The position numbers and the translations under genes were made by a program. The notes under the pieces were generated by a model that was not told the DNA's origin, did not search any database, and worked only from the letters and a program-made list of their open reading frames with translations. Below, one piece after another: positions 9,598 to 55,536 of a stretch of 64,000 bases of DNA. This DNA is from Fimbriimonas ginsengisoli Gsoil 348. Its GTDB lineage: Bacteria > Armatimonadota > Fimbriimonadia > Fimbriimonadales > Fimbriimonadaceae. Location of the stretch: contig CAMCVK010000006.1 of the NCBI GenBank assembly GCA_945881865.1, positions 62,001 through 126,000 of the forward strand, given 5' to 3'. How positions within the stretch are numbered: position 1 is the stretch's first letter; every line of letters begins with the position of its first letter.

Positions 9598-9873
9598 ATG
9601 GCAGCCATCCCGAAAGCCGAGCAACTGAACATCCGGGCGACGTCGGCCCAAAAGGCCAAGCTGGCAGAAGCAGCCAGCTTGCACAACATGAACGTCAGTC
9701 AGTTTGTGTTGCACACTTCCCTCGAGGCGGCCGAGGTGGTCATTGCCGAACAGCGACTCATCCGAGTCGGTAAAGAGGAACACGACTGGCTTTTGCAAAA
9801 GCTTGAAGAGCCGCCTCAGGAGATTGGTGCCGTGCGCGCGCTGTTTAGTACGCCGAGCGTTTTCGAATCGTGA
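9598..9873 (+). CDS. DUF1778 (TacA-like) antitoxin
   Basis: A 91-residue protein with an N-terminal ribbon-helix-helix segment (EQLNIRATSAQKAKLAEAAS) typical of DUF1778 antitoxins, which bind DNA and neutralise a GNAT acetyltransferase toxin through the C-terminal tail. The tail here ends RALFSTPSVFES. The stop overlaps the toxin start by four bases, the usual translational coupling. A strong AGGAGG lies at 9571-9576, about 21 bases from the ATG and so too far to be its ribosome site. It falls within an eight-codon open frame (9554-9580). No closer ribosome site is visible. Autoregulation of the pair is expected from the family. Confidence 0.88.
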   Translation: MAAIPKAEQLNIRATSAQKAKLAEAASLHNMNVSQFVLHTSLEAAEVVIAEQRLIRVGKEEHDWLLQKLEEPPQEIGAVRALFSTPSVFES

Positions 9874-10370
9874 GCCAGTTTTCTGGCCCGGTTCTGCTGG
9901 ACAAGTCTCACGATTTCGAGGCGTTCGACTGCGGAAGCGTGCCCCTGAACGCGTTCCTCGTTCGGCATGCGCTGGCGAACCAAGCGAACGTGAGTGCCCG
10001 GACCTTCGTCGGCCTGCACGACAACCGGGTGGTGGGCTATTACTCGCTCGCGGTCGGGTCGGTGCTTTACGATGAAGCTCCGGAGCGCATGGCGAAAGGA
10101 CTCGCGAAGCATCCTATTCCTGTTTTGCTAATAGCTAGATTCGCCATCGACAGAAATTACCAAGGCCAGGGTTTGGGAAAAGGGCTGTTTAAGGATGCCC
10201 TCAAGCGATGCGTCGGCGTGTCGCGCGAAGCCGGGGTCCGCGCGCTCATGACCCATGCAAAGGACGAGGACGCGCGGCGCTTTTATCTTCGCATGGGAAT
10301 GTTCGAGTGTCCATCTAATCCGCTTCACCTCTATCTGCTGATGAAGGATGTTGAACGCTCCGTGAGTTAG
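9870..10370 (+). CDS. GNAT acetyltransferase toxin (TacT-like)
   Basis: A 166-residue GNAT protein. The acetyl-CoA loop is FAIDRNYQGQGLG (about 91-103), and the C-terminal DARRFYLRMGMFECP carries the tyrosine (Y139) used as general acid in TacT, AtaT and ItaT toxins. Relatives acetylate the amino group of charged aminoacyl-tRNA and stop translation. The start is a GTG overlapping the antitoxin stop. Downstream lies only a short imperfect dyad (10385-10401). The motifs are intact, so an active toxin is likely; which tRNA it targets cannot be read from the sequence. Confidence 0.88.
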   Translation: MSQFSGPVLLDKSHDFEAFDCGSVPLNAFLVRHALANQANVSARTFVGLHDNRVVGYYSLAVGSVLYDEAPERMAKGLAKHPIPVLLIARFAIDRNYQGQGLGKGLFKDALKRCVGVSREAGVRALMTHAKDEDARRFYLRMGMFECPSNPLHLYLLMKDVERSVS

Positions 10371-10480: not shown

Positions 10481-11899
10481 CTACTTTGGCGAGCCGGAGA
10501 GCATCGCGAGTGCGAGTTCCTTCTGCACGAAATGATCCACGACCGGGTACGGGTAAGTCTCGCCGAGGGTCACACCGGCGACCAAAAGGTCCATCGGCTT
10601 CGCCTTAAAGGGGGCGTGCAGGTCGGCATCGCTCAACTCTGCGAGCTCAGGAACCCACTGCCGGATGAATGCTCCGGTCGGGTCGAATTTCACGCTTTGC
10701 AGCAGCGGATTGAAAATCCGAAAGTACGGCTGGGCGTCCGCGCCGGTGGAAGCCGCCCACTGCCAGCCGCCGTTGTTGGAAGCGAGGTCGAAATCCAGCA
10801 GCTTCTCGGCAAAATACGCCTCGCCGCGCCGGTAGTCGATGAGCAGATCCTTGGTCAGAAAAGAGGCCACGATCATGCGCAGGCGGTTGTGCATCCATCC
10901 GGTCGCGTTCAGGCAACGCATCGCCGCATCCACGATTGGGTAGCCGGTTGCGCCGTCGCACCAAGCCTGCCAGTGAGCCTCGACGCCGGGATAGACCAGG
11001 TCGCGGTACTGCGGCTGAAACGTGTCGTTTACGACGCCGGGATGGTGCCAAAGCAGATCCTGATAGAACTCGCGCCAAATCAGCTCGTTCAGCCACTTCT
11101 CATGGTTCGGCCCAAAAGACACCGCGCGCCGCGCGGCCTCGCGGATGCTGACGGTTCCGAACCGAAAGTGCACCGAGAGCCCACTGGTGCCATCGATCGC
11201 GGGAAAGTCGCGGTCTTCCTTATATCGCTTGGCTTTCTTCTCGAAGGCGGTTAAGCGCTTCAGGCCCGCGTCTTCTCCGGCTTCCAACCAAAGCTCGGTG
11301 GTTTCAAAGCCGAGGTCGGCGAGGTCCCATGGGCGAGAGAGCCCTTCGAGGGAAGCAGACGGAGCGAGACCGGATAGGTCCGGTTCGGCTTCATCCAAGG
11401 CCGTCGAACCCGAGAGCAGGGCCTTCCAGGCGCGGGCATAGGGGGAATAAACGCGAAACGGCGTTCCGCTTTGGCTGAAGATCTCGCTACCTTCGAAAAC
11501 CACGTGGTCCTTCACCGTTTCCAGGCGGACAAGCTGGCCTACGGCAGCATCGCGTTCGCGGGCATACGGTTCGTAATCTCGGCCGGTGACCACGACATCC
11601 GCGCCAAAGACCGCCGCAACGGCGGGAATCTCCTCGACCGGGTCGCCGTGCCGCACGACCAGTTGGCTGCCAAGAGCCCGCAGCTTGCCATCAAGCTCCT
11701 TCAGCGAGCGATGAATAAAATCGAGACGCCGATCTACCCGCGGCAGCGAGGAGAGAATGTTGCGGTCGAAGATAAAGACGACGGCGGTCTGCTCGGCAAG
11801 CCGAGCGGCCTCTTCTAACGGCCGATGATCAGAAAGCCGAAGATCGCGGCGGAGCCAGCAAAGGGCACGGGAAAAAGTTTTCGGCATCGCCAGACCCAT
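10481..11899 (-). CDS. phrB: Deoxyribodipyrimidine photolyase, class I
   Basis: A cryptochrome/photolyase family enzyme that uses reduced FAD and light to split cyclobutane pyrimidine dimers. The N-terminal Rossmann antenna domain begins CWLRRDLRLSDHRPLEEA. The FAD-binding region includes the signature WCDGATGYPIVDAAMRCL and WMHNRLRMIVASFLTKDLL, with FDLASNNGGWQWAA following. Length of 472 residues is normal. Starts at 11899 (MGLAMPKTF) and 11887 (MPKTF) are both possible, neither with a clear ribosome site. A single gene, so light or SOS control is not evident. A 6-4 photolyase or cryptochrome is less likely given the bacterial CPD-type motifs. Confidence 0.92.
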   Translation of the reverse strand: MGLAMPKTFSRALCWLRRDLRLSDHRPLEEAARLAEQTAVVFIFDRNILSSLPRVDRRLDFIHRSLKELDGKLRALGSQLVVRHGDPVEEIPAVAAVFGADVVVTGRDYEPYARERDAAVGQLVRLETVKDHVVFEGSEIFSQSGTPFRVYSPYARAWKALLSGSTALDEAEPDLSGLAPSASLEGLSRPWDLADLGFETTELWLEAGEDAGLKRLTAFEKKAKRYKEDRDFPAIDGTSGLSVHFRFGTVSIREAARRAVSFGPNHEKWLNELIWREFYQDLLWHHPGVVNDTFQPQYRDLVYPGVEAHWQAWCDGATGYPIVDAAMRCLNATGWMHNRLRMIVASFLTKDLLIDYRRGEAYFAEKLLDFDLASNNGGWQWAASTGADAQPYFRIFNPLLQSVKFDPTGAFIRQWVPELAELSDADLHAPFKAKPMDLLVAGVTLGETYPYPVVDHFVQKELALAMLSGSPK

Positions 11900-12674: not shown

Positions 12675-14627
12675 ATGCCGCAGCCTGACTGTACGTCCCT
12701 CAACGAGGCCCTAGACCGGCTGGATCAGGTCGCACCTGGAGTTCCGCTCCTCGCGCTTGGGCAAACAATTTTTTGGGATGAACCCATGAAAGCGGGCGTT
12801 GCGCTGGCCGTCCGAAACCGGGATCGCGCCTTCGTGGCCGGCGTTCACGACACCGACTATTTCGCCAAGCTGGGCACCGGCAAGCGAGCGGGCAAGGGCT
12901 ACGAAAGCTTCCCGCACAACGACACAACGACAAAGAACCTTTGGAGTGCCGCCGCCGAGTTCTCGGCCTTGTTTGGCTCCGAAACGGTGGTCACGCGCGA
13001 TCTGCTGCAGTCGGCGGGGCTCAGAATTCCGCCGCTGGAGAAGGCTCGGCCGCGAATCATGGACGAGGCAACCGAAGCCTGGGGCTGGCGGGGCGTCGTT
13101 TCGCTGGAGGAGAACCCTCCGATTGCCGCCGAAGTCCCGCTAGACCGACTTTTTCCGGTCTTGTTGAGTGCTCTCGACGGCGCGATTCAGTCTTCGCTGG
13201 GTTCGCTCGCCGGCCAAACCCGTGAGGCGGCGACGCTCGCATCGGACCAACTCCACCGGTTTGTGTGTGACGAAAGCGACCTTCCGAACCTTCGGTTGGG
13301 TCAGTTCTACGAGAAGCTCCTGCCTCAGCTATACGATTTTTGCGCGGGCGAGGAAGTCCCGCTGGAAGCCACGTCCACGACGAAGCTGCTCCGCTTCAAC
13401 TCGCAAACCGTCGCGCTGGCACGCTTTAATCTAGTGCGTCGTTTTGTTGAACCAGCGAGCCGCGAGGTGGCGCGCGAAGCCTACGACCGCGCGATTCGTG
13501 GCGGAAGCGGTCAGTACGAGCTGGCGCGTTTTGGTTCGGGCGCGATTCCGTTCGACCTGGTGATTCCCGGCCTGGGGCGCGGAACAGTGCGCATCGGCAA
13601 CCGGGGCGTCGTGATCATGACGCGCGTCCCGCAGTTCCTCTCGCTGGCCAAGCCTTTGGCCTCTCTTGAAGAGCTGGCGGCGAAAGTGGAAGCGAAGTTC
13701 GGACCAAATTGCGCGCTGATCGGCAAGGCGGTCTCGCTCATCGGCATGCTCGGTGCGGAATTCAGCTTTGTGTTTCACGAGGGCGCCAGCAGCTACGTCT
13801 CGCACTCCCGCCGATTTCATCAACTTCTGGCGGAAGCGGGTTTTGCCGTTTCGGTCCATCCGATCCTGCGCGTGCGCTATGAAGCCTGGAATGCGCTGTC
13901 GCAGACCCACGCTTGGATCCGCCTGCCCGAGCCGTTCCGGCGGGCATTTGGCACCGAGGAACTGTGCGGGCCGTCGTTTGCGCAGCGGTGGCACGAGGTC
14001 GTGCGCGAGCAGGAAAGCTTCTTGCACGAACTGGGGCAGCTTCGGCGGCCAATCGACCTCATTCGGTACCTCGACCGGTTACTGGGCGGGTCGTGGAATG
14101 TCGTTGCGGACGAGTACGCCCGGTTGCAGGGCCGGTTGGATCGATTGCAGACCGATCTCGAGGAAACGATGACCGAGCGCGACCGGCTGTACGCGCTAGC
14201 GCGGGAACTCCGCGTGCGCCGGGTGCAGCTAGAGGCCGAGATGGGGAACCATTTCCGGGCAGAGATTTTCGAAAAGGAACCAACTGGGGCCGCACTTGCC
14301 GTGCGAGAGGAGTATTTGCTCCGGCTGGAGGAAGCCTCGGTCGCTTTGCGGACGGCCCGGGCTGATCTACGGCAACTGCGAGAGCGGCAACTTGCCCTCG
14401 TGCAAGACGAGGAGATTCGGCAGATTCACGTGCGGCGGCGCAGCATCGAGCTGGAAGCCGAACTCAAGAGGATGCGGCTGATTCGCGACGCGGTGATCTC
14501 CAGCAAGGGCCTGAAGAAAGCGAACGATCGGCCCAGCGCGTGGTGGTTCCCGCTGGTTTCGCCCGATGGCGGCTGGTTCGAGGAAACCATGCGCACCGCC
14601 AGCGCGTACCTGGAACCGCTAACTTAG
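12675..14627 (+). CDS. Unrecognised 650-residue protein with C-terminal coiled coil
   Basis: I cannot place this protein in a known family. It has no signal peptide or membrane segment, so it should be cytosolic. The first 470 residues look globular, with notable polar clusters (AGVHDTDYFAKLG near 55-67 and FPHNDTTTKNLW near 78-89) that could be active-site or metal-binding. From about 475 to 615 the sequence is long Glu/Arg/Leu-rich helix with heptad character (RLDRLQTDLEETMTERDRLY and ELEAELKRMRLIRD), a predicted coiled coil. It ends in a short aromatic tail (WWFPLVSPDGGWFEETM). It stands alone, facing the PhyH gene, with codon use like its neighbours, so it seems native rather than recently acquired. 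Confidence 0.75.
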   Translation: MPQPDCTSLNEALDRLDQVAPGVPLLALGQTIFWDEPMKAGVALAVRNRDRAFVAGVHDTDYFAKLGTGKRAGKGYESFPHNDTTTKNLWSAAAEFSALFGSETVVTRDLLQSAGLRIPPLEKARPRIMDEATEAWGWRGVVSLEENPPIAAEVPLDRLFPVLLSALDGAIQSSLGSLAGQTREAATLASDQLHRFVCDESDLPNLRLGQFYEKLLPQLYDFCAGEEVPLEATSTTKLLRFNSQTVALARFNLVRRFVEPASREVAREAYDRAIRGGSGQYELARFGSGAIPFDLVIPGLGRGTVRIGNRGVVIMTRVPQFLSLAKPLASLEELAAKVEAKFGPNCALIGKAVSLIGMLGAEFSFVFHEGASSYVSHSRRFHQLLAEAGFAVSVHPILRVRYEAWNALSQTHAWIRLPEPFRRAFGTEELCGPSFAQRWHEVVREQESFLHELGQLRRPIDLIRYLDRLLGGSWNVVADEYARLQGRLDRLQTDLEETMTERDRLYALARELRVRRVQLEAEMGNHFRAEIFEKEPTGAALAVREEYLLRLEEASVALRTARADLRQLRERQLALVQDEEIRQIHVRRRSIELEAELKRMRLIRDAVISSKGLKKANDRPSAWWFPLVSPDGGWFEETMRTASAYLEPLT

Positions 14628-15374
14628 CCGCTGGCCGTAGGCATCGCCGATGCCAAGCAACTGCATCTCGACCGGGTTGTTTCGTGCCGCCGCTTGCGCA
14701 AGCAAGCGTGAAGAAGGCTCGTATCCGGCCCACATTTTCATCCAGAAATGGCCGTAGTTGTAGATGAGCACCCGCCGCGCATGCTCGCTTTCGTTGTTCA
14801 CCGCGCAGTGGTAGACGCGCCCGTTGAACATGTACGCCGTGCCGGCCTTGCCGGTCATTTGGATCGCGCCGGGCATCTGCTTCGGGTCGTCGACGACCGG
14901 GAACTGCCAGGTCTCGGGAAACTTGTGGCTGCCTGGGACCATCGCTGTCCCGCCCGAAGCCGCGTCGACGTCGGAAAGCAAGAAAAACACCTTAACCATC
15001 ATCACGGAAAGCGGATGATGGACGCCGGTCAGACCGACGTCATGGTGCCAATCGGCGTGCGTTTTTGCCGTCTGCGGCGGCGTGATGAAGTAGTCGTTGT
15101 CGATCATCATCACGTCCTCGCCAAGCGCACTGCGCACCAGCGGAAACACGACCGGATGCCACAGTAGTTCGAGCAAAGCATCGTCGTATTCAATCGGTGC
15201 CTGAACCTGATGGAGCAATGCGCCACGCGCGCCGAGCCGCGTTTCGTCGGCCCGCCACACTGCCTCCGCCGCATCGGCGGCACCGCGCACCCGGGTGAGC
15301 TCCTCCGGCGACAAGGCATCCGGGATCACCAGGAACCCGTTTGCCTCAAATTGCGCGCGCTGCGTGGGGTTCAT
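14619..15374 (-). CDS. Phytanoyl-CoA dioxygenase (PhyH) family protein
   Basis: A predicted Fe(II)/2-oxoglutarate oxygenase of 251 residues. The metal triad is H110 and D112 in ADWHHDVG with distal H189 in VYHCAVNNES; an arginine follows at about 200. I chose the ATG at 15374 (MNPTQRAQF). It overlaps the stop of the large upstream gene by four bases, and the preceding open frame is only read-through of that gene's other frame. The overlap means translational coupling to the PA14/ThuA/DUF1080 protein and hints at a shared sugar or glycoside pathway, with the GntR/LacI regulator upstream as candidate controller. Confidence 0.87.
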   Translation of the reverse strand: MNPTQRAQFEANGFLVIPDALSPEELTRVRGAADAAEAVWRADETRLGARGALLHQVQAPIEYDDALLELLWHPVVFPLVRSALGEDVMMIDNDYFITPPQTAKTHADWHHDVGLTGVHHPLSVMMVKVFFLLSDVDAASGGTAMVPGSHKFPETWQFPVVDDPKQMPGAIQMTGKAGTAYMFNGRVYHCAVNNESEHARRVLIYNYGHFWMKMWAGYEPSSRLLAQAAARNNPVEMQLLGIGDAYGQRLS

Positions 15375-18300
15375 TTTTTCGATTCCAGCGGCGCGATCCA
15401 GAGGTTTCGGTATCGGATCGGGCCGTGGTCGCCCTGCAGCATCAGCGGGCCGGTCGGGCGCTCGTCCTCGAACATGCTGGCTCGTGTGGGACCGGTAACA
15501 CGGACTCGGCTTTGCACGACGACTCCGTTCAAACGGACTTCGATGAACTCGGCGTCTTGCGTCTTGCGGGTGCCCTTGAACTTCGGCGCGCGGAACACGA
15601 TGTCCAGCGACTGCCACTCGCCCGCTGGGCGACTAGCATTGATCCGGGGCGGCACTCCCTCGTAACCCGCATCGTTCTTCCACCGCTCGTAGACGCCACC
15701 GCAGTCGGAACTCTGGATGTCCTTGTTCGGCTTGCCAAACGAGTCGAGGATTTGGATCTCGTAGCGGCCCATGAGGTACACGCCGGAGTTGCCGCCTTTG
15801 GGAACGTTGAATTCGACATGAACCCGCGCATCGCCAAACTCCCGCTTCGAGAGGAGCGGTTCGGTGCCCTTCGAGTTCACTAGCTCGACATCGGATGCCG
15901 TCCAGGTTTTGCCAAATTGCCAGTCGCTCACCGCGTTGGCTGGCTTGGATTTCGCATTCGAATTTGCCGCCCAGAGGATGCCTTCGCTCAGATGCCGACG
16001 GAAAAGCAGCTCGTCGTAGGTTCCATCGGTGTGGCCGAGTGCGGTGTACCAGGAGCGGCCGCCGTCAAACTCGCGGCACCAAATCGCCGGATGATCGGCC
16101 ATTCGGCCTCCGCTGTAGCTGGATGGATCGAGATTTGCCAGCACGCGAACCTTCTCGCGCGGGTTGGATACAAAGTCGTACCACTCGTCAACGCGCGGCC
16201 ACACCGTCGGCAGGAACGACGTCGATGGGTGAGCGGCGTCTTCGATGCGAAGGTCGGCCGATTGAATCTCCGGGTGATGGGCGAATTCGCCGCCGGCTAG
16301 CTCCTTGAACCAGGGCCAGTTGTGCTCGGTGTCGCTCGCGGAGTGAACGCCGACAAAGCCGCCGCCAGCGCGGATGAACCCCTGGAACGCAGCCTTTTGT
16401 CCGGCGTCCAGGATGTCGCCGGTCGTGTTGAGGAACACCACCGCGTCGAAACTCGCGAGCTTAGCGGGGGCGAAAAGCGACGCATCTTCGGAGAACGTGG
16501 CCGTAAATCCGTGCTCCGCCGCGATCTCGCGGATCGCTTTCTGCCCGGCGGGAATCGAGTCGTGCCGGAAGCCGGTCGTCTTCGAAAACACCAACAGGCG
16601 CGGGTTAGGGTGAGCCAATGCCGAGGTGTGCGGCCAGGACGAAACCGGCAGCTTGTTCAGCGTGTACCAAACTTCGGTTGCCCAGAGCGGCGTTTTCGCC
16701 TCGTCCGTCAAGTCGAGGTTGAAGTAGACGACCCGGCCCTCTTTGCGGCCGGCAATGGTCAGGTCGACCGACTTACCATCGGCAGAGGCGGTGGCGCGGG
16801 TTACGGTGAGGTCCTCGCGATCTACCTTCGGCCCGCCGTATTCGAAGGTCGGCACGTAGCGCCATTGTCGGACCCGGAACCGCTTCAGGTCGCGAAGCTG
16901 GCCCTTCGGCACCGGTCGGTTGAATTGCACGCGAAAGCCTTGCTCGGTCACGTTAACCGACGCTACTTCGAACGCCGACTTCCCATTTGGCCGGATCTTC
17001 TGCAGGCCAAAGGTGGTCCACTTGCCGGTCTTAGGGTTTGTCCACGCCCAAGACTCAGTCGCGCCGATGCCGCCGATGTATAGCGCGCCGTCCGGACCCC
17101 AAACCAGTCGGTTCGTGCCGACTTCGAAGCCTTGCGAATACTGAACCGCTCCGCCTTGCCAAACGCCGTTGACTTTCTCCAGCCACCCGCGCCGCAGCCC
17201 GCCGTACTTGACATCGCTGATGAGCATTTGCCCAGTAAACTCGCCGTTCGGCACGACGACGGTTTGGCCGGGCGAGTTCGCGATGTCGCCCTGTGGAAGG
17301 TACATCGCGGGAGGCGTAAACGGTTTGTCGTCGAACTGGCCCGGTGCGCCGCCGAGCGGGTACTCCGAGTTCTTGAACGTCGCGTTGTTGAAGTGGCCGT
17401 AGAAGCCGCCGACCTCTAGCACGTTCAGCTTGTTGCTGGGTTGCCAGGCGCCTTGGTTCTCACCGACCAGAATCAGGCCGTTCGGGCCGTTCGAAACGCC
17501 GTTGGGCGTTCGGTGGCCACTATCGAGGAACTCAATGTTCGCGAGCGGCAGCGCAGAGTTGTAGGCCGCCGGATTCACGCGGAACATACTGCCGCGGTAG
17601 CGCGGGTTCGGGCCATTGATGCCGGGGGCATCAAATGTGATGCTCGTGCTGAGCGCGGCATACAGCCACCCATCCTTCTCGGCAAGACCGAACGTGAAGT
17701 GATGATAGTTGTCGGTTCGCCAGCCACTGCCAACCACTTTCTTCTCTTCGTAAAAGTCGTCGCGGTTCGCGTCAATCAGCTCGATAATTTGGGTCCGGGT
17801 TGCGACGTACACCTTGCCGTTAACCACCGCCATTCCGAGCGGCTCCTGGAGATCGGTGGCCGCGAGCCTCCGCGTTACGTTGCGACGATCGTTGCCGGTG
17901 ACGCCGTCCAGCAGCCAAATCTGGCCGTCCATCAGGTCCGGCTTAAACTGGCCGCTCTGGTTCGGCGGGAACGAGCTCACCAGCAGCTTGCCATCCGGCC
18001 GAAACGCCATGCCGCCAACCTGCGGCTCGAAGTCAAGCGGGCGAATGTTGACCAGATCCCAGCCGGGATGAAGTCCGGCAAGCGGCACGCCGTTGCCCGG
18101 GCGGAGCGCACCGCCGGGCCGCAACAGTCTCTTGGGGCCAGGTGAGGTAACCCGTGTGAGACCGGCGGGAACACGAAGCACCAGCGCATCCACGACGGAG
18201 AAGTCGCTCGCGCCGGATGGCTTCCACTCTAGCTTGAATTCTTGGCCGCCGCTGGCCTCAAAGTAGCGAATTTTCAGTTCATGTCGGCCCTTGGACAGTC

Positions 18301-33855: not shown

Positions 33856-34320
33856 TTACGGTGAACCAGCCGCTATTAGCTCGTTAACGCGCTGCTGTTC
33901 TCTGCCGTAATCTCCACCCGAGGCGCACAAATGCTGAAGATACAGCACGAAAAGCGCCACCAGGTAATCCGGTTTGTCACCTCTTATTTTTAGGTAGTTG
34001 AGGATAGAGAGCACGAGAACTTCCGGTAAGTCCGTGGAATCATATACTACTGCATTAACAAGAAAGATAGGCGCAAAGTGTTCGTATGCCTCGGTCGTTA
34101 GAAAGGAAAGGCATTCTTGCTTCTTCCAGAGCTCGTGGTCCAACGCGATGGTCATTGCGTCCCGGCCCATGAGGAATTCTTTGCAATCCTGCACGTCCAG
34201 ATAGTCCGAACCTTCCGGATAAACGACGATCGCCGGTCGGACACGGTTCTGGGCAAAGGCTAAAAGTGCAGCTCCGATAACATGTTCTGAACTCACTGTT
34301 TGCACCCTTGCTCGACACAT
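33856..34320 (-). CDS. Hypothetical protein (DUF6714-like)
   Basis: A 154-residue soluble protein. The middle section (SFLTTEAYEHFAPIFLVNAVVYDSTDL) resembles small uncharacterised proteins of the DUF6714 kind, in which a helix with EA(Y/F) is followed by an aromatic-rich segment, but I hold this loosely. The start may be the ATG at 34320 or an in-frame GTG at 34296. Base composition is less GC-rich than the rnc and fab genes either side, and it lies within a repeat-filled gap. No motif for catalysis or DNA binding is visible. Confidence 0.5.
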   Translation of the reverse strand: MCRARVQTVSSEHVIGAALLAFAQNRVRPAIVVYPEGSDYLDVQDCKEFLMGRDAMTIALDHELWKKQECLSFLTTEAYEHFAPIFLVNAVVYDSTDLPEVLVLSILNYLKIRGDKPDYLVALFVLYLQHLCASGGDYGREQQRVNELIAAGSP

Positions 34321-34377
34321 TCTGCGCTAAATCGTGAAGGAAATCCTGAAAATCTTTGGCCTCTGTAGAAACTCTGT

Positions 34378-34600
34378 GTAGTCGGCGGGTGCTTTTTCCC
34401 GTCTAGATCCGATGCCTGGAATTCGGTAGTCGGCGGGTGGTTTTTCCCATCGCAAATCTCCGGAGTGGCCTAAATGGCCACAATTCTAAAGCCCAGCCCA
34501 CAGGGCTGGGTCAGGTTAAGCCACGGCATATGAGCCCTGAAGGGGCGAGATACTTGTGAAGTAGGCTCATTGAGCCTCTTCGGGGCTCACCAGTATCTCC
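34378..34600. repeat. Cluster of intergenic repeats, family 2
   Basis: The 13-mer tagtcggcgggtg occurs twice, 48 bases apart (34379-34391 and 34427-34439), each followed by a tttttccc-type run. A perfect hairpin cccagccc-aca-gggctggg lies at 34492-34510, then the tgagccctgaaggggcgaga segment, then a hairpin tgagcc/ggctca at 34571-34589 ending cggggctcacc. Similar blocks recur near 33.72 kb. They look like remnants of dispersed intergenic elements rather than regulatory sites of one gene. Confidence 0.6.
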
Positions 34601-34859
34601 ACTCGCCATCTCGGAAGAACGCGACGAAACGAGGAAAGAGGAAGAACCAGGCCAAGGCGGCGGCGAAAAAAGCATTCTCGTACCCTAACGTCACAGCTAT
34701 TGGCCAGGCCGTATTATCATTTGGTGAATCCGGAAGTTCGATAGACTGGCGAATCATGTAATTCGCAAAAAACAACGACGGAACAACGAAGATCGCAATG
34801 GAAGTGATCCATCGCACAAGCTCTAGCTTTCGGCTTAATCGTTCCGTCGTGTTTCTCAT
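34587..34859 (-). CDS. Small two-helix membrane protein, unknown
   Basis: About 90 residues if started at the ATG at 34859 (MRNTTERLSRKLELVRW); the frame is open to 34940. Two hydrophobic segments are visible: ITSIAIFVVPSLFFANYMI and ENAFFAAALAWFFLFPRFV. No family recognised. The C-terminal end overlaps the last family-2 repeat hairpin, which is unusual and makes the exact end or the reality of the gene less certain. Composition is less GC-rich than core genes nearby. Confidence 0.45.
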   Translation of the reverse strand: MRNTTERLSRKLELVRWITSIAIFVVPSLFFANYMIRQSIELPDSPNDNTAWPIAVTLGYENAFFAAALAWFFLFPRFVAFFRDGEWRYW

Positions 34860-35022
34860 TAGTTCGTTCTGCCCGCGGCCCGTGGCAGCGAGCGCAAAAC
34901 ACATTGCATCAGCTCCTGATGGTAGCCCGCCACATCCCAAACAAACGTCGTGAGAACCGAAGGCGTCCTTCTCGTTCGACGAAGGCCATCCGGCTGGTAG
35001 GTCATCGAATGAGCCCGCTCAT

Positions 35023-35649
35023 TCATAGTTTGCCCTTCTTTTTGAGTCTGGCTAACACGGCCTTCGCTGCCAATTTCGCCGTAGGAGATCCAGTAAGACT
35101 CATCTCTTTGAGAATATTCTGAGATTTCTCTCCCCCATCATACGCAAGTAATGAAGTGGCAGATCCAGGTTCCGTTGGAAATTTCTTTCTATATCTCGTA
35201 TACGCATCAACGATTTCCGTAATCGGTTCCGAGAACTTGCCTCCGCCTGCGACGAAACTACCTGCAAGCGCAAGCAAGAGCAATCCGATTCTGCGGTCAT
35301 TCTTGTCGACGACTTCGGCAACGAATTTGGGTCCAAGCCTTGCTTCTCTCCCTTGGTACCAAGCCGCAATCAGGTCTCCCTTGACAGTATCCGAATGGGA
35401 TCCCAACAGCATTTCGCGAAGCGTCTCATCGCTAATTCTAGGCGAGAGTTGATCACGAAGATGGTCTATCTCGGCTGACGAGTGGTTACCGGCTTCGATC
35501 GCGGCGTTCAGCTCCTTTGTGGCAAGCAGAGCTACCGACTCGGGATCACCTGGCTTCGCAGCCAGCTTCGGCGCAGCGCGACAAGCGCAAAGATGTGCGA
35601 CGGCAAGGAGGAGCAGGATGCTCTTCTTTAGAAGCGGCTGCATCAGCAT
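35023..35649 (-). CDS. Lipoprotein of unknown function
   Basis: A protein of about 206-208 residues with a lipoprotein signal (KKSILLLLAVAHLCAC, lipobox HLCAC). Both ATGs at 35649 and 35643 are possible starts. The mature part is helical and repeat-like (VALLATKELNAAIEAGNHSS, VDAYTRYRKKFPTEPGSAT) and may form a TPR- or HEAT-like solenoid, but no family is certain. It lies on the same strand as the two unknown genes downstream and shares their lower GC content. Together they may be an acquired patch between rnc and the MFS gene. Confidence 0.65.
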   Translation of the reverse strand: MLMQPLLKKSILLLLAVAHLCACRAAPKLAAKPGDPESVALLATKELNAAIEAGNHSSAEIDHLRDQLSPRISDETLREMLLGSHSDTVKGDLIAAWYQGREARLGPKFVAEVVDKNDRRIGLLLLALAGSFVAGGGKFSEPITEIVDAYTRYRKKFPTEPGSATSLLAYDGGEKSQNILKEMSLTGSPTAKLAAKAVLARLKKKGKL

Positions 35650-35763
35650 CTATTGTAGCCGTTTAGGCCTTTCTTGGCAAATTCGCCAGCCACTATATTT
35701 GCCGATTTCATCTTCCATTCAGGAAGAAGCATCAGATGGCTGACCTGTGCCGGAGGACAGCCC

Positions 35764-37035
35764 TCAACTCCGCGCCGGGACGGCGTCCGGAGTCGGGTCG
35801 GTGGACGGCATCCGGATGTTGCGGAAGGCGGGGTCGAGCAGGCCGCCCAGGCACGCCACCGCCATCCCGATTCCCATAATCAAAAACACCGTCTCTGGGC
35901 CGAACTGCTTCAAAAGCGACCCCCCTGCCGCCATGCCAATCGTCATCGCGCCGGTCGCGATCATGCTGAGCACCGAATTCACCCGGCCCCGAAACTCGTC
36001 CGGAATGCTGATCTGCATGTACGTCATGATCGGGATATCCGCCAGCGGGACCGCCAAACCGGCCACAAAATTCCAGAAGCAAAACAGCCAAAAATTCTGG
36101 CTCCAAGCCATGGCAGCAACGGTTACACCGACGACGGCGAGGAAGAGCGCGAATGATTGGCCCGGCTTTTTCGGCTGAAAAATGGTCGCCTTCCAACTGC
36201 TGATCACCATCCCGAGGAAGAAGGCAAACTCCAGCCACGCCACCGTTCCCGGCTTGCCGTCGAACCAGCGGTCGTTGACGGCCATGTACACCACGAAAAA
36301 CGGCGAGACCATCAGGCGGAAGACGGTCAGCATCGCGATGTAAACGGTGATGTCTCGGCGCTTGCGGATGAAGCCCATACCGATGCGGAAGTCTTCCATT
36401 GCCTTCATCGGCTTGCTGTCCTTTCTGTCAGGCATCAGCTTTGGTAGGCGGGCAATATACACGGCGGAAACGAAGAACGAAGCCGCGTTGATGGTGATCA
36501 TCCAAAAGTAGAAGGCTTTCGGGGAAAGGTCATACAGCTGCCCGGCAACGCCCGCCGCAATGGCAAGCCCCAGCATCGGCATCAGGTTTTGCGCCGTCAT
36601 GCTGAGCGCGTTCGCCCGCACCAGGTAATCCGGCGGAACAACCGAAGGAATGGCGGCCGACTTCGCCGGAGTGAAAAAGCAGCGGAACGTGCTCAGCGAG
36701 AACGCCATCGTCATCATGAGCCACGGCGGTGGGTTGTTCATGGAGGTGAGAACAATGGCAAAGACCACCAGCGCGCCGCCGCTCACGAGATCGCTGAGAA
36801 GCATGATCTTCTTTCGGTCCATGCGGTCGGCGAGAACGCCGGCGTAAGGCCCAAAAAGCAGATAGGGAAGGGCCTCAAGTGCGCCGACAAAGCCGACCAT
36901 GGCGTCCGAACCGGTCGCCTTTTTGACCATGAACATGAAAATGACGTAGTAGCAGGCGTCACCAAATTGCGAGATCGCCTGCCCCAGCCATAGGTTGCGA
37001 AACGCAGGGAACTTCAGGGCGTCGGTTGGTTTCAA
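35764..37035 (-). CDS. MFS transporter (EntS-like exporter family)
   Basis: A 423-residue major facilitator protein with about twelve hydrophobic segments. The loop GVLADRMDRKKIMLLSDL is the family motif A between helices 2 and 3. The fold is closest to the EntS/MFS_3 exporters of siderophores or drugs (start FPAFRNLWLGQAISQFGD). The start is TTG at 37035 with a good GAGGAG about eight bases upstream; no nearby ATG fits. It is divergent from fabD with about 110 bases between. The exported compound is unknown. Confidence 0.88.
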   Translation of the reverse strand: MKPTDALKFPAFRNLWLGQAISQFGDACYYVIFMFMVKKATGSDAMVGFVGALEALPYLLFGPYAGVLADRMDRKKIMLLSDLVSGGALVVFAIVLTSMNNPPPWLMMTMAFSLSTFRCFFTPAKSAAIPSVVPPDYLVRANALSMTAQNLMPMLGLAIAAGVAGQLYDLSPKAFYFWMITINAASFFVSAVYIARLPKLMPDRKDSKPMKAMEDFRIGMGFIRKRRDITVYIAMLTVFRLMVSPFFVVYMAVNDRWFDGKPGTVAWLEFAFFLGMVISSWKATIFQPKKPGQSFALFLAVVGVTVAAMAWSQNFWLFCFWNFVAGLAVPLADIPIMTYMQISIPDEFRGRVNSVLSMIATGAMTIGMAAGGSLLKQFGPETVFLIMGIGMAVACLGGLLDPAFRNIRMPSTDPTPDAVPARS

Positions 37036-54216: not shown

Positions 54217-55536
54217 ATGGACATTTCCGAGGAAACTAGGAAGGCTCTCCCGACGGCGAAAGAAATCTTTACTCCGATAAGCGCTATTGCTGTTGGGCTA
54301 GGGACCTGCTCTTGGCTGTTCCACAGCCTTACACATCGGTTTGGACAAGCCGACCCCCCCTGGCCCTCCATCATAACGTCGAGCCTACTTATTGCGATTC
54401 TCTTGTCCGTTGAATTTTATATTAGCCTGTTTTTCTCGCTTAAAACTTCGCAGTATATCGACTGGAAGCTAACCCCGAGGAGGGAACCCGGACCCAAGAA
54501 GGAGTCTCGGCTGCCTCCATGGGTCGGCAAACTTCCTTTTAATTCAGCTTTGCAGCAGATTGAAGCAGGCCAGAGCCCGAACCTAGGCGGAGCGCTGCTA
54601 GATCGAAAAGATGCGCGAAAGGCGATAATAAGAAAGTACAGATTTGTATCCTGGTTGTACGTCTTCTTAGCGATCTTACTGTTAACGGTGTTTGCCTTCT
54701 GGCCTACAAATCAGGACACTTGGCTATCTACTTTTCGGAATATTTTTGCTGGCACTGATACAAAGGTCTTGGAGTTTTCGGTCAAGGACCGAATGAAACT
54801 TATCCCTTTGAAGCCGCTGTGTGGTGGAGTCTGCTGTCTATTCCTGTTCGGCTATCTCTTCTACTTTCTTGAGCAGCGTAAATCCTGGCAGCTACGTCTA
54901 GCTGCTTGGAACAGTCAAGGTGGAGTGAAGGTTCAAGACAATAAGGAGGTAACAGACTACATTAATCGATTCTTTAATCGTCATGTCGGACTCGGTAGAT
55001 TTACAGCCGCAATCAGTCTGTTGCTATATGCAACTTTAGTCTACCCCGAAATTCCCCAAGAACTGGGTGGCGGAAGACCAAGGTTGTGTTATCTCACCTT
55101 AAAGTTGGATGAGCTTTCGGATGAACTAATTTGCCAACTGATCTATACTGATGCAATAAGTCATAAAAGAACTGACGTAGAATTTAATGCAGAATGTAAA
55201 CAGATTGCGACCAAAATTCGGGCCACCTCGCCGAATGTCGTTTCTTCGAAGCAACTTAAACTGTGGCTTATTGGCGATACTCACTATAGAATAGGAAGCT
55301 CGAGCTCGTCTGGCATAGGTGTCGGGAATGATCAATTCAACTATCACGTAGTGCTGGTGAAGAAGGACATCGTCCCATTTGTCACGATGCACGAATATGA
55401 GTACCAGCCCCCTAACAAAGACAGGAGGCTTCAAAACCAAAAGCTCGGATTGTTGTTGCGGGACGCAAATCCCTGGTTCCGAAGCCTGTTTCTCGAGGAA
55501 GACAGCAAGAAAGTAAGTAACTTTCTCGCACGCTGA
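54217..55536 (+). CDS. Multi-spanning membrane protein of unknown function, lower GC
   Basis: A 439-residue protein with about four hydrophobic segments (ISAIAVGLGTCSWLFHSL; IITSSLLIAILLSVEFYISL; FVSWLYVFLAILLLTVFAF; PLCGGVCCLFLFGYLFYFL), followed by a cytosolic C-terminal domain from about residue 260 to the end. The C-terminal part holds conserved-looking strands (LKLWLIGDTHYRIGSSS, QFNYHVVLVKKDIVPF). I cannot place it in a family. Its base composition and codon use (AT-ending codons, many Ile/Lys/Asn) differ sharply from folE2 and plsC on either side, consistent with horizontal transfer. No mobile-element gene or repeat flanks it. Confidence 0.7.
   Translation: MDISEETRKALPTAKEIFTPISAIAVGLGTCSWLFHSLTHRFGQADPPWPSIITSSLLIAILLSVEFYISLFFSLKTSQYIDWKLTPRREPGPKKESRLPPWVGKLPFNSALQQIEAGQSPNLGGALLDRKDARKAIIRKYRFVSWLYVFLAILLLTVFAFWPTNQDTWLSTFRNIFAGTDTKVLEFSVKDRMKLIPLKPLCGGVCCLFLFGYLFYFLEQRKSWQLRLAAWNSQGGVKVQDNKEVTDYINRFFNRHVGLGRFTAAISLLLYATLVYPEIPQELGGGRPRLCYLTLKLDELSDELICQLIYTDAISHKRTDVEFNAECKQIATKIRATSPNVVSSKQLKLWLIGDTHYRIGSSSSSGIGVGNDQFNYHVVLVKKDIVPFVTMHEYEYQPPNKDRRLQNQKLGLLLRDANPWFRSLFLEEDSKKVSNFLAR

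Follow-up and report, generated by a model that had tools for sequence, protein, structure and literature searches.

A 650-residue core protein of an Armatimonadota class and its DapF-like partner gene: a candidate amino-acid-activating pair

What does a protein do that almost every member of a bacterial class retains and that the databases searched fail to name? The open reading frame at 12675-14627 (plus strand) in a 64-kb stretch of Armatimonadota DNA, hereafter the window, raises this question. A first-pass annotation had described it as a 650-residue protein matching no family, with polar DTDYF and HNDTTT clusters resembling a catalytic centre and a long coiled coil following them. The reading frame was found as described: it is a real gene for 650 amino acids that starts with ATG (the stop codon is counted in the coordinates), and its protein gives one match in its own genome. 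On the opposite strand, a PhyH (Phytanoyl-CoA dioxygenase) reading frame (14619-15617, minus strand) overlaps its end by 9 bases.

A core gene of its class and its conserved motifs

A search with the protein as query found the gene in 60 of 61 near genomes. It is carried by 106 of the 113 genomes of the class and, in a profile search, by 198 of the 291 genomes of the Armatimonadota. Among good genomes, that is, those with completeness of at least 90% and contamination of at most 5%, the surveyed spread amounts to 86/88 in the class and 148/194 in the phylum, and the only good class genomes that lack the gene are two of 1.5 Mb each. Because of this presence in nearly all class genomes and most phylum genomes, we count the gene as part of the class core, widespread in the Armatimonadota, and not as a recent arrival. 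Relatives were found neither on viral contigs, scanned with two peptide patterns, nor in the plasmid search. As the gene is kept in nearly all good genomes of the class and in three quarters of those of the phylum, its role is probably basic, though the libraries searched give it no name.

In all the libraries searched by sequence, the protein is indeed an orphan. Against Pfam, the window protein matches only LcrR, which we rejected as its identity because the E value of 0.031 lies under the Pfam cut-off. With 23 members of the family as queries, the best 25 of 39 NCBIfam families and the best 25 of 79 Pfam families were weak and mostly coiled-coil matches, the best E values being 0.0018 and 0.00013, respectively (the latter for Seryl_tRNA_N, in two members). 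A family profile against PDB sequences gave at best an AP-2 appendage domain (E 0.0023), a match that stands at E 0.5 with a wider profile. The claim that the protein belongs to no family therefore holds at the level of Pfam, NCBIfam and PDB sequences, none of which offered a clear family with an assigned function, the finding that the first-pass annotation had named as contrary to it. It does not hold for the fold, which is not unknown, since the predicted core resembles BshC, the enzyme that adds cysteine to form bacillithiol, and class I synthetases. The literature accessible to us on Armatimonadota thiols, wall diaminopimelic acid (DAP), conserved proteins and diaminopimelate epimerase (DapF), which took in few subscription journals, yielded no title or abstract opening on the gene or on the gene pair discussed below.

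Conservation was read from two alignments. The first has 23 rows, the window protein and 22 of 23 loci from a scan of genome contigs for short exact peptides (L032, a near-copy of L031, was left out). The second, phylum-wide, has 27 rows and leaves out L062, L069 and L073 of its 20 loci as well as 13 of 22 class loci. Motif 1, ALGQTIFWDEPMK (residues 27-39, 12753-12791, plus strand as for all parts of the gene), runs from the end of a predicted strand at residues 25-29 into a helix at 36-46; I32 is conserved in at least 90% of the 23 rows and every other position is invariant, and G29, Q30, T31, W34, D35, E36, P37 and K39 remain invariant in the 27 rows. Motif 2, HDTDYF (residues 58-63, 12846-12863), contains the DTDYF cluster at residues 59-63. 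All five positions of that cluster (D59, T60, D61, Y62, F63) are invariant in the 23 rows, the window included, and across the phylum D61, Y62 and F63 stay invariant, with H58 and D59 at 90% or more. Motif 3, HNDTTT (residues 81-86, 12915-12932), has H81, N82, D83 and T86 invariant in the 23 rows, and D83 and T86 in the 27, where H81 reaches at least 90%. Since both clusters are present and conserved in relatives, they are not a product of chance. Further along the protein, TEAWGWRG (residues 133-140, 13071-13094) keeps T133, E134, A135, G137, W138 and G140 in all 23 rows, GRGT (residues 301-304, 13575-13586) is invariant in the same rows, and GKA (residues 350-352, 13722-13730) is invariant in both alignments. 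The C-terminal cap (residues 619-650, 14529-14624), with its RPxAWW...WF signature, has R619, P620, W623, W624, W634, F635 and E647 invariant in the 27 rows.

Predicted fold and comparison with BshC and class I synthetases

AlphaFold2, run on the full length with the 23-row alignment, gave a model (pLDDT 91.4, pTM 0.84) with a mixed alpha/beta core up to about residue 460, long helices from 473 to 618 and the short cap. The helices, predicted at 473-531, 538-576 and 579-618, form the long coiled coil that had been announced (14091-14528). It does not lie right behind the polar clusters, however, but starts some 390 residues after HNDTTT. In VIA-align, the full model ranks BshC first (4wbd, Z 13.6, 437 residues aligned, rmsd 12.3) and class I lysyl-tRNA synthetase (LysRS) second (1irx, Z 12.9, 271 aligned, rmsd 3.9), and the other 48 rows listed align only from residue 431 upwards, that is, to the coil. 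For this reason the core (residues 1-462, 12675-14060) was folded and compared alone. The core-only model (pLDDT 83.2, pTM 0.82) again has BshC 4wbd on top (Z 15.2, 300 aligned, rmsd 4.3), followed by LysRS 1irx (Z 12.3, 246 aligned, rmsd 3.7); a Z of 8 is reached by three of 998 chains. The next 48 rows listed, at Z 4.8-7.0, comprise 45 class I synthetases, among which GlnRS, GluRS, TyrRS and ArgRS come after LysRS, one cyclodipeptide synthase and two unrelated structures. Foldseek gave no match in the PDB at E 0.001 or below for either the full model or the core, and the best row in a viral structure library was A0A345MNG5 (E 0.0027, probability 1.00, TM 0.37). The fold lead thus comes from predicted models and from VIA-align alone, taken as a second look after Foldseek, with a consistent ranking. 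The structure prediction and fold comparison suggested at the outset therefore point to BshC and then LysRS as the nearest structures, and the predicted models describe a family that is itself new but built on an already known, ligase-like fold, with a Rossmann-type core. In the model, GQTxFWDEPMK directly follows the core strand 25-29 and HDTDYF the strand 53-57. This position makes the proposed catalytic centre plausible, and the invariant motifs may bind the substrate.

A 2015 review divides BshC into a Rossmann core, the connecting peptides and a coiled coil that serves as the dimer domain, and calls its mechanism unknown at that time (PMC4360819). The family studied here shares with BshC (4wbd, PF10079) not only the nearest predicted fold but also the order of domains, Rossmann core and then coiled coil, and, by eye, an invariant Gly-Gln followed by an invariant Asp-x-Asp. 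By contrast, the protein has 650 residues and 4wbd 540, and its motifs GQTxFWDEPxK and HDTDYF differ from the GQQxGxxxGPxxxxxK and EDxD of BshC; where BshC has the patterns GQQxG...GP...K and ED(H/D)D, the family shows different motifs in the same order. Profile-profile comparison, another of the suggested checks, revealed no relation to BshC. An hhalign run against five BshC sequences returned E values of 0.3 and 0.53, and the family profile scored against eight BshC (three taken from plasmid records and five from Armatimonadota, of which two have an incomplete C-terminus) remained under the mean of block-shuffled controls, at 17.2 versus 19.0 in local and 3.5 versus 5.0 in global alignment, and was also lower than the reversed control. 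PF10079 is absent among the window protein's Pfam matches up to E 10 and matches in none of the 113 class genomes, the window's included, three control genomes being matched. Common descent with BshC, if any, would lie beyond detection at this level.

Our first hypothesis, that the gene supplies a missing BshC, was dropped because bshA is rare, being over cut-off in 9 of the 291 phylum genomes (2 of 61 class genomes in an early count) and not in the window's genome. A strongly diverged BshC, putting cysteine onto glucosaminyl-malate to make bacillithiol, would agree with the fold and domain order. Of the nine genomes with bshA, five (G004, G005, G017, G115, G274) have the 650-residue gene and no PF10079, which leaves this reading a small opening in those five. 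We nevertheless regard it as most improbable: nine genomes with bshA face 198 with the gene, the profiles show no relation, and canonical BshC, present in 6/291 phylum genomes (four of them, G188, G189, G214 and G216, also with bshA), belongs to families f20 and f30, in whose seven genomes the gene was never found.

The second-best predicted fold invites the comparison with class I aminoacyl-tRNA synthetases. HDTDYFAKLP presumably resembles motifs of class I LysRS and GluRS. A pattern search for the HIGH and KMSKS strings found them in none of the 27 family rows, and they are also absent from the eight BshC rows. That the gene is the LysRS of these bacteria was set aside, since class II LysRS is over cut-off in 102/113 class genomes and in 85 of the 88 good ones, the window's genome included, so that no LysRS is missing. 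A true relative charging or modifying tRNA would be in line with LysRS as second-best fold and with the 45 class I synthetases among the 48 further rows listed. It appears quite improbable to us given the missing HIGH and KMSKS strings, the LysRS role already filled by a class II enzyme (LysRS being the sole synthetase checked) and the fact that 46 of the 194 good genomes of the phylum lack the gene. A separate 502-residue protein in one genome (locus L088, genome G025) has a class I LysRS-like N-terminal part scoring 128.6 bits, below the family cut-off; that genome also carries class II LysRS.

A DapF-like partner gene

The examination of conserved neighbours, also suggested by the first-pass annotation, revealed a partner, which is the most telling result of the analysis. 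When the reading frames around 44 gene loci were clustered, a DapF-like gene, here called DapF2, was directly downstream in 16. Across the 136 genomes in which both genes are among the matches listed (150 for DapF2 and 148 for the gene, hence a part of the 198 carriers), DapF2 lies directly downstream on the same strand in 83, of which 72 belong to the class and 11 to other families of the phylum. The gap, measured between match bounds, is -4 to 185 nt with a median of 8 nt; for split matches of the gene (e.g., G062, G076, G108) the C-terminal piece on the contig of DapF2 was used. The remaining 53 genomes, including the window's own, count as not adjacent, a category that includes different contigs of draft assemblies.

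The two genes are also linked by co-occurrence. Across the 291 genomes, carriers of the gene mostly show two DapF matches and the others mostly a single one. Two or more DapF matches (TIGR00652, in which split genes can inflate the copy number) are present in 131 of the 148 good genomes that have the gene and in 0 of the 46 that lack it. The counts for gene with at least two DapF, gene with fewer, no gene with at least two, and neither are accordingly 131/17/0/46 in the good set; they are 174/24/10/83 in all 291 genomes, and 22/3/0/20 when each family is represented by its majority, a table added to allow for phylogeny. The ten genomes with at least two DapF and no gene all lie outside the good set. 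The figure of 174 is a count of matches, in which not every second copy is confirmed as DapF2, and the co-occurrence and adjacency counts derive from hand-transcribed tables. The 24 carriers with fewer than two DapF matches (24/198, 17/148 of the good ones) consist of 16 with one DapF1-scoring copy, DapF1 being the ordinary DapF (G036, G048, G089-G091, G124, G150, G168 and eight f43 carriers), five with one DapF2-scoring copy (G045, G053, G062, G079, G204) and three with no DapF or a trace only (G039, G125, G172). As a side observation, the two good class genomes without the gene (G087 and G088, 97% complete and from the window's family) have a single DapF match; genome reduction may have removed both members of the pair at once.

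DapF2 is separable from DapF1 by phylogeny and by residues. A single branch of the 54-sequence tree splits 34 DapF2 from 20 DapF1 with 100/99 support, the bootstrap being still unsettled (0.983 versus the 0.99 wanted). With midpoint rooting, six DapF2 of other families fall between the class DapF2 and DapF1, so DapF2 may, but need not, have a single origin. In H. influenzae numbering, all 20 DapF1 keep N11, N64, C73, N157, N190, E208, R209 and C217. In the DapF2 set of 34 adjacent and 20 displaced copies, N11, N64, C73, E208, R209 and C217 are kept in 54/54, N157 is replaced by Ser or Thr in 54/54 and N190 by Ser in 52/54. According to two articles, the distal carboxylate of DAP is contacted by the three Asn N64, N157 and N190 together with R209, and its distal amine by E208 (PMC8225329, PMC12039745). 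DapF2 therefore resembles DapF in matching TIGR00652 (17/17 DapF2; the cut-off of 114.65 is passed by 7/7 with scores listed, the copy in the window's genome scoring 159.3) and in retaining both catalytic Cys together with E208 and R209. It differs in its distal pocket, which has lost N157 and N190 and retained N64 and R209, in lying on the far side of a fully supported branch and in usually accompanying an ordinary DapF as the second copy. There are precedents for DapF relatives that serve a different pathway with a different amino acid as substrate, namely PddB, a racemase of 2,4-diaminobutyrate (PMC8225329), and the histidine racemase HisR/CntK (PMC11602996). Judging from its description, PddB is set apart by the loss of N64 and R209 as well, both of which DapF2 keeps (PMC8225329). 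Given the retained catalytic residues, the replaced N157 and N190 and these precedents, DapF2 is most likely an active epimerase with a changed substrate. Second "DapF" genes in this phylum pass the equivalog model and may carry a wrong annotation, a point of concern for metabolic models that cover lysine and wall synthesis.

In the window's genome, DapF2 is on another contig (G000:C21:17605-18384), beside ftsZ and a polyprenyl synthetase gene. Because an ftsZ-like gene accompanies both the gene and DapF2 in four related loci (L034, L036, L038, L040), the gene has probably moved away from DapF2 in the window's lineage. This vicinity also bears on cell-wall chemistry, in which the ligase would modify or attach a DAP-like amino acid and DapF2 would epimerise it. 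The retention of N64, E208 and R209 for the distal end of DAP, with two smaller residues making room, agrees with such a role, as does the position next to ftsZ here and at the four other loci. We consider it unlikely, since ftsZ proximity is limited to 5 of 36 loci with DapF2 and no family is constant near both genes. The search for a third constant family covered 64 loci, 44 of the gene and 20 of displaced DapF2, and found none; the widest other neighbours are a prepilin-like family, named by eye, in 13/64 and a thioesterase family in 9/64, and methyltransferase-like genes, also named by eye, number three near the gene and three near displaced DapF2. A thioesterase-like gene sits just upstream of the gene in eight class loci (L033-L036, L038-L040, L044), with PF13279 shown for that of L034.

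A putative two-enzyme pathway and other genes of the window

Class I synthetase-like enzymes couple amino acids to acceptors, usually via an adenylate. The reading we prefer, with moderate confidence, is that the 650-residue protein is an amino-acid-activating or -adding enzyme whose partner is a DapF-like epimerase with a changed specificity. Its Rossmann core would probably activate an amino acid, or join one to a small acceptor, at a putative site that the model places at GQTxFWDEPMK and HDTDYF. By analogy with BshC, the coiled coil at the C-terminus would probably dimerise the protein. DapF2, judging from its residues, would probably be a cofactor-free epimerase or racemase whose pocket is altered where it receives the distal end of the substrate, acting on the amino acid before or after the 650-residue protein activates or attaches it. 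Their joint product would be a small molecule or building block containing the epimerised amino acid. The tie to a DapF paralogue turns the function of this orphan into a directly testable question.

Non-catalytic proteins with synthetase-like folds are known, and the missing HIGH and KMSKS strings could likewise indicate a structural or regulatory protein that merely retains the fold. The dense invariant polar motifs of the core and the coupling to a metabolic enzyme, DapF2, argue against this, and we assign it a low probability. Somewhat unlikely, in our opinion, is the synthesis of a low-molecular-weight thiol other than bacillithiol, or of a metallophore: an amino acid, with cysteine as one candidate, would be placed on a carrier and DapF2 would yield a D-amino acid, comparable to CntK and staphylopine. 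The BshC-like fold, the coupling to DapF2 and the existence of DapF-like racemases for other amino acids, as far as described in the text accessible to us (PMC8225329, PMC11602996), are consistent with it, whereas no third family is constant in the 64 loci and nothing points to cysteine as the substrate. A broader form of our preferred reading, an amino-acid-activating or -adding enzyme with an epimerase partner, is that the two constitute a phylum-defining pathway, a BshC-fold ligase and a re-purposed DapF making a new small molecule. We advance it tentatively, as a little less probable than its contrary. Its product would possibly be a D-amino-acid conjugate, conceivably a low-molecular-weight thiol peculiar to the phylum, or else a wall amino acid in modified form. 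The pathway would have escaped notice since one of its enzymes belongs to no family and the other is taken for DapF.

Other parts of the window hold features of their own. At 9598-10370 (plus strand), a TacA1-like antitoxin gene (PF08681, E 2.1e-16) overlaps one for a GNAT acetyltransferase, and the two look like a toxin-antitoxin pair of the TacA/TacT type. A protein of the DNA photolyase/cryptochrome family (PF03441, PF00875) is encoded at 10481-11899 (minus strand). Between 54001 and 56000 the G+C content goes down to 0.514, and the 439-residue membrane-like reading frame located there (54217-55536) may be a late arrival. A second G+C dip, to 0.536, occurs at 34001-36000.
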